This document shows positions 39,669 through 42,966 of a stretch of 51,391 nucleotides of DNA, one piece after another. Within the stretch, counting starts at the first letter, position 1; the number at the start of each line of letters is the position of its first letter. The notes beneath the pieces are model-generated. The model was not told the DNA's origin, made no database searches, and saw only the letters and a program-made list of their open reading frames with translations. A program made the position numbers and the translations under genes. Source of the stretch: Microbacteriaceae bacterium X2B (GTDB lineage Bacteria > Actinomycetota > Actinomycetes > Actinomycetales > Microbacteriaceae); assembly GCA_005502445.1 (NCBI GenBank), contig SCPB01000014.1:1-51391 (forward strand), given 5' to 3'.

Positions 39669-41222
39669 GTGTTGTCCGGTCGCATACCCCCTGTCCTGCG
39701 GCCCGAGCACCCCTCCGCGCGGCCGCTCGGCGGGCTCGTCGACGCCTTCGCCCTCGAGGTCGTTCGCGGCCGCGTCGACGGCCTGGAGGTCACCGGCATC
39801 ACGCTCGCGACCGGCGACCTGCGACCGGGCGATCTCTACGTGGGCGTCCAGGGGCAGAACCGCCACGGCGCCGAGTTCGCGGCCGAGGCGGCCGAGGCCG
39901 GTGCCGTCGCGCTCCTGACCGATCGTGCGGGCGCGGTGATCGCCGAGGATGCCCCGCTCCCGATCCTCGTCGTCGACGACCCGCGCGCCGCCCTCGGCGA
40001 GCTCTCGGCGTGGGTGTACCGCACGACGGAGGAGCCGCCGCTGCTGCTCGGCGTCACGGGAACCAACGGCAAGACCTCCACGGCCTACCTGCTCGACGGA
40101 ATCCTGCGCCAGCTCGGTCTCGTCACGGGTCTGTCGTCGACCGCCGAGCGGAAGATCGGCGACCTGACCGTCGTCAGCCGGCTGACGACGCCCGAGTCGA
40201 GCGAGATGCACGCACTGCTCGCGCGCATGCGCGAGGCCGGCGTCCGCGCGGTCGCCGTGGAGGTCAGCGCTCAGGCCCTCAGCCGGCATCGGGTCGACGG
40301 CATCGTGTTCGACGTCGTCGGGTTCACCAATCTCAGCCACGACCATCTCGACGACTACGCCGACATGGAGGAGTACTTCCAGGCGAAGCTGCCGCTCTTC
40401 CAGCCCGACCGCGGGCGCCGCGGCGTCGTGTCACTCGACTCGGCGTACGGCGAGCGGGTCGTCGAGTCGGCGCGCATCCCGGTCACGACGATCACGGCGC
40501 GCGAGGGAGTCGACGCGGAGTGGCGGGTCGAGCTCACCGAGGAGCACCCCGCCCACACGGGATTCCGACTCAGCGGGCCCGGGGGGCAGTCGCTCGAGAC
40601 GCGCGTGCCGCTCATCGGCTGGCACATGGCCGCGAACGCCGGCCTCGCGATCGTCATGCTCGTCGAAGTGGGGTTCTCGCTCGACGTCATCGCCCAGGCG
40701 CTCGGCGATCATGGCATCGACGCCTACCTGCCCGGGCGCACCGAGCGGGTCTCGGGCGACCGCGGTCCGAGCGTGTACGTCGACTTCGGCCACAGCGCCG
40801 ACGCCTTCGAGCAGACTCTCGCTGCGGTGCGCCGGTTCACGACCGGCCGGACGATCATGGTGTTCGGCGCCGACGGCGACCGGGACGCCACGAAGCGCCA
40901 CGAGATGGCTCGGGTCGCCGCCGAAGGCTGCGATGTGCTCGTCATCACTGACCACCACCCGCGCTTCGAAGACCCCGCGGCGATTCGCGCGACGCTGCTC
41001 GAGGGCGCCGCGCTCGCGACGAACCACCCCGCGATCCACGAGGTGAGCCCGCCCGAGGCCGCGATCCGCGTCGCCGTCGGATTGGCTCAGGAAGGCGACT
41101 CGATCCTGTGGGCGGGCCCGGGCCACCAGGACTACCGCGACATCCGCGGAGTGCGCACCGAGTACTCCGCGCGCGACGAGGCCCGAGCGGCCCTCCGCGA
41201 GGCCGGCTGGCCGACCCGATGA
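39669..41222 (+). CDS. murE: MurE-type Mur ligase
   Basis: A 517-residue Mur ligase. N-terminal UDP-binding domain to about 120, P-loop GVTGTNGKTST (128-138), carbamylated lysine K240 (YFQAKLPLF), C-terminal domain with VDFGHSADAF. It adds the third residue to UDP-MurNAc-dipeptide. The substrate motif is D428-H-H-P-R432, not the DNPR of meso-diaminopimelate enzymes, and AGPGHQDYR replaces the usual GKGHE. This fits the variable diamino acid (or homoserine) of Microbacteriaceae type B peptidoglycan. AGAAAGAGG precedes the GTG start. Overlaps the next gene by four bases. Confidence 0.92.
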   Translation: MLSGRIPPVLRPEHPSARPLGGLVDAFALEVVRGRVDGLEVTGITLATGDLRPGDLYVGVQGQNRHGAEFAAEAAEAGAVALLTDRAGAVIAEDAPLPILVVDDPRAALGELSAWVYRTTEEPPLLLGVTGTNGKTSTAYLLDGILRQLGLVTGLSSTAERKIGDLTVVSRLTTPESSEMHALLARMREAGVRAVAVEVSAQALSRHRVDGIVFDVVGFTNLSHDHLDDYADMEEYFQAKLPLFQPDRGRRGVVSLDSAYGERVVESARIPVTTITAREGVDAEWRVELTEEHPAHTGFRLSGPGGQSLETRVPLIGWHMAANAGLAIVMLVEVGFSLDVIAQALGDHGIDAYLPGRTERVSGDRGPSVYVDFGHSADAFEQTLAAVRRFTTGRTIMVFGADGDRDATKRHEMARVAAEGCDVLVITDHHPRFEDPAAIRATLLEGAALATNHPAIHEVSPPEAAIRVAVGLAQEGDSILWAGPGHQDYRDIRGVRTEYSARDEARAALREAGWPTR

Positions 41223-41872
41223 GCACGGCCGTCCTGGTCGTCGATGACGTCGAGCACCGGCTCGACGGCGCGCTCGTGATGCTGCGGCAGGCGAGCGCGA
41301 CGGCGCTCATGCGCGTCGACGGCATCGGCGACGCGGCGGTCGCGGCCGCGGTCGACGCCGCGACCGCCGCGCTCGCTGCCGGTGCGACCCTCGACGAGGC
41401 GGCGAGGGCGGGCGAGCGCGTCGGGGAGATCCCCGGGCGCTGCCGCCGCATCCGCACCGCCGCAGGCGTCGTCGTCATCGACGACACGGCTGCGAGGCAC
41501 CCGGAGGAGGTGCGCCGCTCGCTCAAGGTCCTCGCCGACGCCACCCGCGGCCGCGGCCGCTCGTTCGCGGTGCTCGGCGAGCTCGAGAGCGAGCTGGGCG
41601 AGTGGTTCGATGACCACGACGGGCTCGGCCGGCTCGTCGTCCGACTCGACATCACGCAGCTCGTCGCCGTGGGGCACGGCGCCCGTCATACGAGCACGGC
41701 CGCCGGACTCGAGGGGTCGTGGGACGGAGAGTCGATCCTCGTCGACGACATCGACCGGGCCTACGATGAGCTTCGTGCACGGCTCGGGCCCGGTGACGCG
41801 GTGCTCGTGAGCGCGGCCGGAATCAGTCCGCTCGCCGCCCTCGTCGCACGACTGACGGAGGAGACCGCATGA
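41219..41872 (+). CDS. Partial MurF-like protein lacking the ATP-binding region
   Basis: A 217-residue protein at the murF position. Residues 1-75 resemble the end of a Mur central domain ([19 protein letters not shown] in place of the G-x-HN-x-xNA-x-AA helix); 76-217 resemble MurF domain 3: [27 protein letters not shown] (family: DDSYNANP), [14 protein letters not shown] (family: GDMLELG) and [15 protein letters not shown]. The UDP-binding domain and the P-loop GTNGKT of a roughly 450-residue MurF are absent, and the HN and NAN motifs are lost, so it cannot be a normal ligase. Clean 4-base overlaps with murE and mraY and an intact frame argue for a real, translated gene. Confidence 0.82.
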
Positions 41873-42966
41873 GAGCACTGCTCCTCTCGGGCGCCTTCGC
41901 GCTCGCCTTCACCCTGCTGCTGACGCCGCTGTTCATCCGACTGTTCAAGCGATTGGAGTGGGGCCAGTTCATCCGAGACGACGGCCCGCAGACGCACCAC
42001 ACCAAGCGCGGCACGCCGACCATGGGCGGCATCATCGTCATCGTCGGTTCGGTGCTCGGCTACTTCTTCGGTCATCTCGTCGACCAGACGGCGCCGACGC
42101 AGAGCGCGATGCTCGTGCTGCTGCTCATGGTCGGCCTCGGCGTCGTCGGCTTCGTCGACGACTTCACGAAGGTGCGCAATCAGCGCAGCCTCGGCCTCAC
42201 GGGCTGGGCCAAGGTCGCCGGTCAGGTCATCGTCGCCTCGGGCTTCGCGATCCTGGCGATCTCGTTCCCCGACGCCGACGGCCAGACGGCGGCCTCGACG
42301 ATGGTCTCCGGTGTGCGCGACATCCCGTGGCTCGACTTCGCCGCGCTCGGGGGCATCGGCATCGCCCTCTTCGTGATCTGGGTCATCGTCATCGTCGTGA
42401 GCACCTCGAACGCCGTCAACGTCGCCGATGGCCTCGACGGACTCGCGACCGGCGCGTCGATCCTCGCGATCGCCTCGTACATCATCATCGCGTTCTGGCA
42501 GTTCAACCAGAACTGCTTCAACGCCAACATCGATCTCGAGCTCGAGTACAAGTGCTACGAGGTGCGCAACGACTCGCTCGACATCGCGATCGTCTCGGCC
42601 GCGATCGCCGCCGCGCTCATCGGATTCCTCTGGTGGAACACCTCGCCCGCCCAGGTGTTCATGGGCGACACCGGATCGCTCGGCATCGGCGGCGCGCTCG
42701 CCGGCCTCGCGATCGTGACGCGCACCGAACTGCTGCTCGTGCTCATCGGCGGGCTCTTCCTCGTCGTGACCGGCTCGGTCATCGTGCAGCGCGTCTATTT
42801 CAAGCTCACCAAGGGCAAGCGCATCTTCCTCATGAGCCCGCTGCACCACCACTTCGAGCTCAAGGGTTGGGCTGAGGTCACGGTCGTCGTCCGCTTCTGG
42901 CTCATCGCCGGACTCTTCGTCGCCGTGGGCGTGGGCCTGTTCTACCTGGAATGGGTGAGCCAGTAG
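41869..42966 (+). CDS. mraY: Phospho-MurNAc-pentapeptide translocase MraY
   Basis: A 365-residue enzyme with about ten membrane helices. Signature motifs: [46 protein letters not shown] and the histidine loop [12 protein letters not shown]. Between helices an insertion with several Cys ([18 protein letters not shown], about 203-222) faces outside. It transfers phospho-MurNAc-pentapeptide to undecaprenyl phosphate to form lipid I. Its ATG overlaps the stop of the MurF-like gene (ATGA). Confidence 0.96.

Follow-up and report, generated by a model that had tools for sequence, protein, structure and literature searches.

In Microcella and several other Microbacteriaceae, the place of murF between murE and mraY is taken by a short gene for a stand-alone C-terminal MurF protein (termed here the stub), which is real, conserved and not ordinary: its product is predicted to fold, is apparently inactive, is under selection and carries one conserved segment. 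MurF is a textbook essential enzyme, and genome comparisons lend good support to the conclusion that, in stub-bearing lineages, canonical MurF has been replaced by a ligase of a different type (termed here the membrane MurF) encoded elsewhere. The reading favoured here, with moderate confidence, is that the stub is a non-catalytic pseudo-ligase adaptor kept for contact, catalysis having moved to the membrane MurF; the parts of this reading that we infer are the activity of the membrane MurF, the inactivity of the stub, the adaptor role of the stub and its partner.

The window (the whole stretch of DNA analysed, 51,391 nucleotides) belongs to the X2B genome (2.57 Mb, 113 contigs). Its genus is Microcella, the matching named records being M. 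alkalica, M. pacifica, M. alkaliphila, M. putealis and Yonghaparkia sp. Root332. It contains the following features:

39669..41222, + strand: murE, intact, the upstream neighbour, whose stop overlaps the stub start (Pfam Mur_ligase, Mur_ligase_M and Mur_ligase_C; named from place and resemblance)
41219..41222, + strand: ATGA, the 4-base murE/stub overlap
41219..41872, + strand: the stub, a stand-alone C-terminal MurF protein of 217 aa (Pfam, NCBIfam, alignment, AlphaFold, Foldseek)
41219..41434, + strand: residues 1-72, left over from the end of MurF domain 2, with the canonical HN residues lost
41435..41869, + strand: residues 73-217, MurF domain 3, with the whole Mur_ligase_C profile at 73-201
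41480..41503, + strand: residues 88-95, former ATP/catalytic loop, DDTAARHP versus NDAYNASP (of 53 stubs, none keeps N92 and two keep Y91)
41642..41734, + strand: residues 142-172, retained segment with R142, G152, A155 and EGSWxGES (165-172), kept in 53 of 53 stubs
41869..41872, + strand: ATGA, the 4-base stub/mraY overlap
41869..42966, + strand: mraY, intact, the downstream neighbour (position and homology in related loci; named from place and resemblance)

An earlier note, made from the DNA alone, had described a 217-codon gene with 4-base overlaps on both sides and no P-loop, and had read it as MurF domain 3 plus the tail of domain 2, with altered HN and NAN motifs; translation and domain searches confirm this description. 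Positions 41219-41872 (+) encode 217 codons and a stop, uninterrupted. The sole Pfam match is Mur_ligase_C (PF02875; 3.8e-11, residues 73-201), and the NCBIfam murF profile TIGR01143 aligns at its positions 222-415 of 418 (3.4e-17). Domain 1, which binds UDP-MurNAc, is missing, as there is no Pfam Mur_ligase match and the TIGR01143 match begins only at 222 of 418; there is likewise no P-loop and no PF08245 (Mur_ligase_M) match, either in the stub or at that place in the genome. The HN pair reads A39/A43 and YNA[S/N]P reads AARHP, so that the domain 3 catalytic loop [DN]D.YNA[NS]P is absent, DDTAARHP standing instead at what is presumably the ATP/catalytic loop of canonical MurF. Compared with MurF as defined by TIGR01143, the stub is alike in the fold of domain 3, in its murE-mraY position and in the sequence of the GRxVVRL...EGSWxGES segment, but unlike in having lost domain 1, the P-loop and the HN and YNANP residues.

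That the protein is related to Mur ligases at all, a point on which the reading in the earlier note depended, is upheld by profile and structure searches, which put MurF first. The top five matches in a PDB sequence search are MurF (best 4qdi, 3.2e-08); the AlphaFold model of the stub (from 48 sequences) is compact, with pLDDT 94.7 and pTM 0.90; and the nine best Foldseek matches of this model are MurF structures (E 6.1e-13 to 6.8e-11). Hence PF02875, AlphaFold and Foldseek all confirm a domain 3 fold of the MurF type. PAP11, the MurE-like subunit of plastid RNA polymerase, also occurs among both the PDB sequence and the Foldseek matches. Its role in that polymerase is non-catalytic; it resembles the stub in being a Mur ligase relative that serves as a subunit of another complex (for the stub, as proposed here), but it differs in being MurE-derived, full length and part of an unrelated complex.

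Five proteins of the X2B genome match Mur_ligase_M at E ≤ 0.001: MurE, MurD and MurC (all in the window), a FolC-like protein and the membrane MurF on contig C34, the names being given by resemblance. A split MurF gene was considered and rejected, because this search finds no N-terminal half in the genome. The earlier note had supposed that the real MurF is encoded elsewhere; a MurF-type ligase is indeed found on C34, of an unusual, probably membrane-anchored type:

G000:C34:129122-130696: the membrane MurF (P0002), 525 residues
L006:6386-9912 (G000:C34): a cassette of hydrolase, membrane MurF and Ddl-like ligase, after gpsA

The membrane MurF matches PF08245 (5.3e-27) and PF02875 (3.9e-09), has MurF as its best PDB matches (4.9e-27), and aligns with the curated murF profile at positions 62-402, without domain 1, scoring 187 bits, below the cut-off of 288.6. 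Its P-loop reads GSYGKTS, and it carries a domain 3 of its own with TYNSNP; residues D412, N416, N418 and P419 do not vary among 28 aligned membrane MurFs (28 of 30 chosen sequences, two being missed by the motif search). An unusual division of labour within the MurE/MurF pair, the other option that the earlier note had raised, is not supported, since the distant ligase has a P-loop and domain 3 of its own and no separate N-terminal MurF half was found. In place of the UDP-binding domain, the first about 160 residues contain roughly 4-5 hydrophobic segments by Kyte-Doolittle, a rough count because the scan also flags 365-387 inside the ligase part; these N-terminal segments are probably transmembrane and the protein membrane-anchored. 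The lack of any other MurF, together with the adjoining Ddl-like gene, suggests that the membrane MurF adds D-Ala-D-Ala.

Another Mur ligase without a UDP-binding domain is MurT (of MurT/GatD), whose substrates, according to two papers, are lipid II and lipid I and not the UDP precursors (PMC6113224, PMC6085368). In these sources MurT differs from the membrane MurF in that it has a zinc ribbon, works with a GatD partner and amidates D-Glu; the membrane MurF, for its part, has hydrophobic N-terminal segments and MurF as its best match. By analogy with MurT, the membrane MurF might act on a lipid-linked substrate. The order of steps might even be changed, such that the membrane MurF would add D-Ala-D-Ala to lipid-linked tripeptide after MraY while the stub would pass UDP-MurNAc-tripeptide from MurE to MraY; this arrangement is conceivable but unlikely.

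Upstream of the cassette on C34 lie genes read as leuC, murA, plsC and gpsA. The full-MurF genomes of the family that were examined have gpsA followed by a ddl-like gene in 10 of 10 cases, and the cassette genomes examined at gpsA have the hydrolase directly after gpsA in 10 of 12, the exceptions being G256, with ~2 kb between, and G143, where the membrane MurF starts ~3.2 kb past gpsA. These surveys indicate that the cassette occupies the site where relatives carry ddl. X2B also encodes a further Ddl (L037; G000:C31:21-911), whose identity to the ddl-like genes linked to gpsA in relatives is low, about 30-35%.

A stub match is present in all 25 other Microcella genomes, in two of which (G024, with residues 3-34 only, and G025) it consists of a contig-end piece, and 24 of the 25 Microcella loci read, X2B included, have a complete open stub. 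Altogether 53 complete, stop-free stubs were obtained from 53 Microbacteriaceae genomes in seven genera, fetched by homology and by place beside murE rather than by the EGSW motif: 24 from Microcella (151-220 aa), eight from g31 (150-216), eight from g97 (140-142), two from g72 (173 and 177), five from g67 (219-322), five from g109 (323-335) and one from g113 (337), a few start codons being ambiguous. Outside the 53 stand L157, where murE is at a contig end, and L025, a Microcella stub cut by the contig start. In the family, every membrane-MurF genome with a readable murE-mraY gap has a stub there; outside Microcella this amounts to 29 of 30 gaps, the 30th stopping at a contig edge. A recent deletion in one strain, which according to the earlier note would have undone its reading, is rejected, because the truncation is genus-wide and also occurs in other genera. 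In two genomes the stub is near to domain 3 alone (151 aa at L031:1089-1544 in G017, Microcella; 150 aa at L156:3042-3494 in G167, g31); most congeners of both have a stub of about 215 aa. G209 has, besides the MurE of its dcw cluster, a second MurE-like protein (G209:C53:20135-21574; 53% identity, E 1e-150).

Across the Microbacteriaceae, the membrane MurF (E ≤ 1e-60) occurs in 40 of 398 genomes and 7 of 85 genera; 352 of the 398 have a full MurF (E ≤ 1e-80). Both ligase types occur in G174 only (the lists were compared by eye and G174 was confirmed); this genome has the stub, the membrane MurF and a full MurF, the last lying elsewhere (L339:5252-8696) with a ddl-like gene after it. Genera g72 and g113 are mixed, with the cassette in some members and full MurF in others. 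Neither type passes these thresholds in seven of the 398 genomes, among them G168, with full MurF in two pieces, G144, which is 78% complete, and G108, with a truncated MurF. The latter (L338:3775-7330) is ~300 aa long (open frame 380 aa) and begins just before a P-loop-like GSVGKSTT; neither the membrane MurF nor gpsA was found in the G108 assembly. Within Microcella, the membrane MurF was not seen in G011 or in G025 (71% complete).

Across the phylum, the membrane MurF (E ≤ 1e-50) occurs in 29 of 396 genomes of Actinobacteria. Of 28 such genomes outside the family, 27 were tested (G092 included, G678 left out), and none has a full MurF above cut-off, which leaves the membrane MurF (loci L164-L190) as the sole MurF-type ligase observed in these members of several other actinobacterial families. 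A stub was not found in the four of these genomes that were checked (G092, G453, G531 and G709): in G092, from another family (L106, L105), murF is fully gone, murE overlaps mraY directly and the cassette lies away from gpsA; in the other three the spacing between MurE and MurD matches leaves, by arithmetic, room for mraY only. These observations bear on the possibility that the stub is a trans-complementing subunit, lending its domain 3 to the membrane MurF. Such a role would fit the lack of the EGSW segment in the membrane MurF, but the membrane MurF has its own domain 3 (PF02875) with four invariant residues and, in 27 of 27 genomes outside the family, occurs with no full MurF beside it; a subunit of this kind is quite improbable.

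Stub length (140-337 aa) and deletion endpoints vary between lineages, and domain 3 is always kept, even in the shortest stubs (140-151 aa). In the G209 stub and the two g72 stubs, the first 22 residues match the native MurF N-terminus with scores that, in each of the three cases, none of 200 shuffles attains; the same shuffle test finds no such match in any of 15 other stubs. The g72 stubs pass from this native start directly to domain 3; the G209 stub lacks domain 1 and the P-loop and has part of domain 2 left; the g67 and g109 stubs, like the truncated MurF of G108, start near the former P-loop; and the g97 stubs are domain 3 alone. An rpoB/rpoC tree was built for 60 genomes, of which four lack rpoC and four have only part of it. 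In this tree, stub lineages stand among full-MurF relatives in up to six places, several of them far apart, some of the deep nodes being weakly supported (0.01 near g97); Microcella groups with g31 as its sister (0.98), G177 lies beside G106 in g72 (0.95) and G209 lies among g113. A domain 3 gene tree meant to count truncations is poorly resolved, the fast stub branches clustering together. The membrane MurF tree groups g67, g72, g113 and g109 (97), which suggests that the cassette was possibly gained once there, spread by recombination, or was lost again in some members. Hence the stubs have several deletion structures, for which no exact number of events is claimed, and recombination of the cassette or regain of full murF may have contributed.

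Of the positions that show at least 95% conservation among 58 canonical MurFs, 13 are unchanged in all 53 stubs (G120, G137, R142, G152, A155, E165, G166, S167, W168, G170, E171, S172 and A181), and others are lost: N92 and M122 remain in none, Y91 in two and K198 in 13 of the 53, and, where the position is present, N43 remains in three of 43 stubs and H39 in six of 41. Because the 58 canonical MurFs were fetched by the pattern EGSW[DN]GES, their agreement at this motif is circular, by construction. Among 30 full MurFs fetched by profile, EGSW is present in 23, absent in six and unreadable in one (within the family it is present in 13 of 15, L052 lacking it and L070 not being read); the motif is thus an inherited and common, though not universal, MurF feature. 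In the stub model, R142 stands at the end of a helix that leads into a strand, and EGSW comes ahead of a strand; from this order of elements, rather than from coordinates, and assuming a parallel sheet, both would lie away from the former active loop. The conserved R142-EGSWxGES segment may be structural. Retention of G120, G137, G152 and A155, several of which fall at strand-helix junctions of the predicted fold, would also suit a ligand sensor, that is, a stub that would control MurE, MraY or the membrane MurF by way of a muropeptide or nucleotide that it still binds; loss of the ATP/catalytic loop (N92, Y91) and of K198 in most stubs makes ordinary Mur ligand binding unlikely, and a sensor of this sort is rather improbable.

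Selection was estimated by codon maximum likelihood (MGK+F3X4 and GY+F3X4) on 17 of the 24 Microcella stubs, nine of the ten long stubs and 17 of the 53 canonical MurFs. Under MGK+F3X4, omega for the Microcella stubs is 0.173 in domain 3 (lnL -4253.3 versus -4515.3 at omega 1) and 0.248 in the N part (-3590.7 versus -3678.8); for the long stubs it is 0.215 in domain 3 (-3220.2 versus -3354.8) and 0.229 in the N part (-4486.4 versus -4573.1). Fixing omega at 1 (with kappa fixed too) thus costs 262, 88, 135 and 87 log units, respectively, in the four stub sets. The corresponding GY+F3X4 values are 0.111 and 0.132 for Microcella and 0.120 and 0.084 for the long stubs, so that stub omega spans 0.08-0.25 across models. 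For canonical MurF, MGK+F3X4 gives 0.078 in domain 3 and 0.109 in the N part; against these values (0.08-0.11), the stub estimates of 0.17-0.25 imply faster evolution under a constraint that is relaxed though present. Pooled Nei-Gojobori ratios are higher than the codon-model values: 0.81 (N part) and 0.52 (domain 3) for Microcella stubs, 0.87 and 0.59 for long stubs, 0.545 and 0.333 for canonical MurF, and 0.277 for Microcella MraY. Erosion of the N part with retention of domain 3 was dropped as evidence: canonical MurF has a nearly equal contrast (median ratio 1.91 versus 1.68), and this, together with the long-stub GY values, means that the regional contrast proves nothing. Judged from these alignments, catalytic residues are lost while the stub fold is under purifying selection.

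Two explanations that require no function of the protein itself are affected by these estimates. The first is that murF became dispensable and that only an open frame is preserved there, letting ribosomes proceed to mraY by translational coupling, as the 4-base stop/start overlap at the end of 49 of 53 stubs might suggest. Coupling needs no particular protein, yet omega is low, the likelihood gains over omega 1 are large and 13 residues are unchanged; moreover, G092 achieves a murE/mraY overlap with murF wholly removed. The codon models and retained residues already largely refute this explanation, which is very unlikely. The second is that the stub is a pseudogene in slow decay, with which the stubs that are shorter than those of most congeners (151 aa in a single Microcella genome, 150 aa in a single g31 genome) and the weaker constraint relative to canonical MurF are consistent. 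All 53 complete copies are open, though the rpoB/rpoC tree sets several lineages far apart, and the shortest stubs keep domain 3; decay is disfavoured by the codon models and retained residues and is most improbable, in line with the earlier note, which had argued from the intact coupled frame. Selection and residue retention suggest that the stub may act as a partner or regulator, as that note had proposed.

The adaptor reading would run as follows. A cassette with the membrane MurF would have arrived at the gpsA-ddl site and made canonical MurF activity redundant; the old murF would then have shed domain 1 and the P-loop, and ligase activity with them. Domain 3 of Microbacteriaceae MurF may have a second function, most likely a protein contact docking the cytoplasmic machinery for precursors (MurE, MraY or MurG), that the membrane MurF would not provide, so that domain 3 would have stayed under purifying selection as a small, folded protein coupled to murE and mraY. 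This is the best explanation for the presence of a stub in every readable membrane-MurF genome of the family, for the omega values and residues kept, and for varied deletions that all keep domain 3. Against it stand the membrane MurF without a stub in G092, the presence of all three proteins in G174, the faster evolution of the stub relative to canonical MurF, the absence of EGSW from some full MurFs and a possibly structural role of the conserved segment.

The proposal also draws on MurF-MraY and MurE-MurF-MurG contacts in other bacteria and on the encoding of the stub between MurE and MraY. One source describes a MurE-MurF fusion and a MurG scaffold in Bordetella pertussis and a MurF-MraY contact in Caulobacter (PMC6420597). 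As there described, these complexes resemble what is proposed for the stub in that domains of the MurF family serve as partners for contacts within a precursor complex, and differ in that MurF is active there and the stub is an apparently inactive domain 3 only. Among the matches listed by a literature search covering papers outside subscription, no title or abstract concerns a truncated MurF or membrane MurF in these bacteria, and 'murF' does not appear in the main text of the Pontimonas genome paper (PMC6106888).

These lineages provide an apparent natural experiment, with several deletion structures, in which the catalytic part of MurF has been separated from its C-terminal domain and the latter kept. 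A protein of 140-217 residues makes the old question of non-catalytic roles of Mur ligases in the precursor complex directly testable. More generally, the replacement ligase raises the testable possibility that, in some actinobacterial groups, the last peptide step may take place at the membrane.
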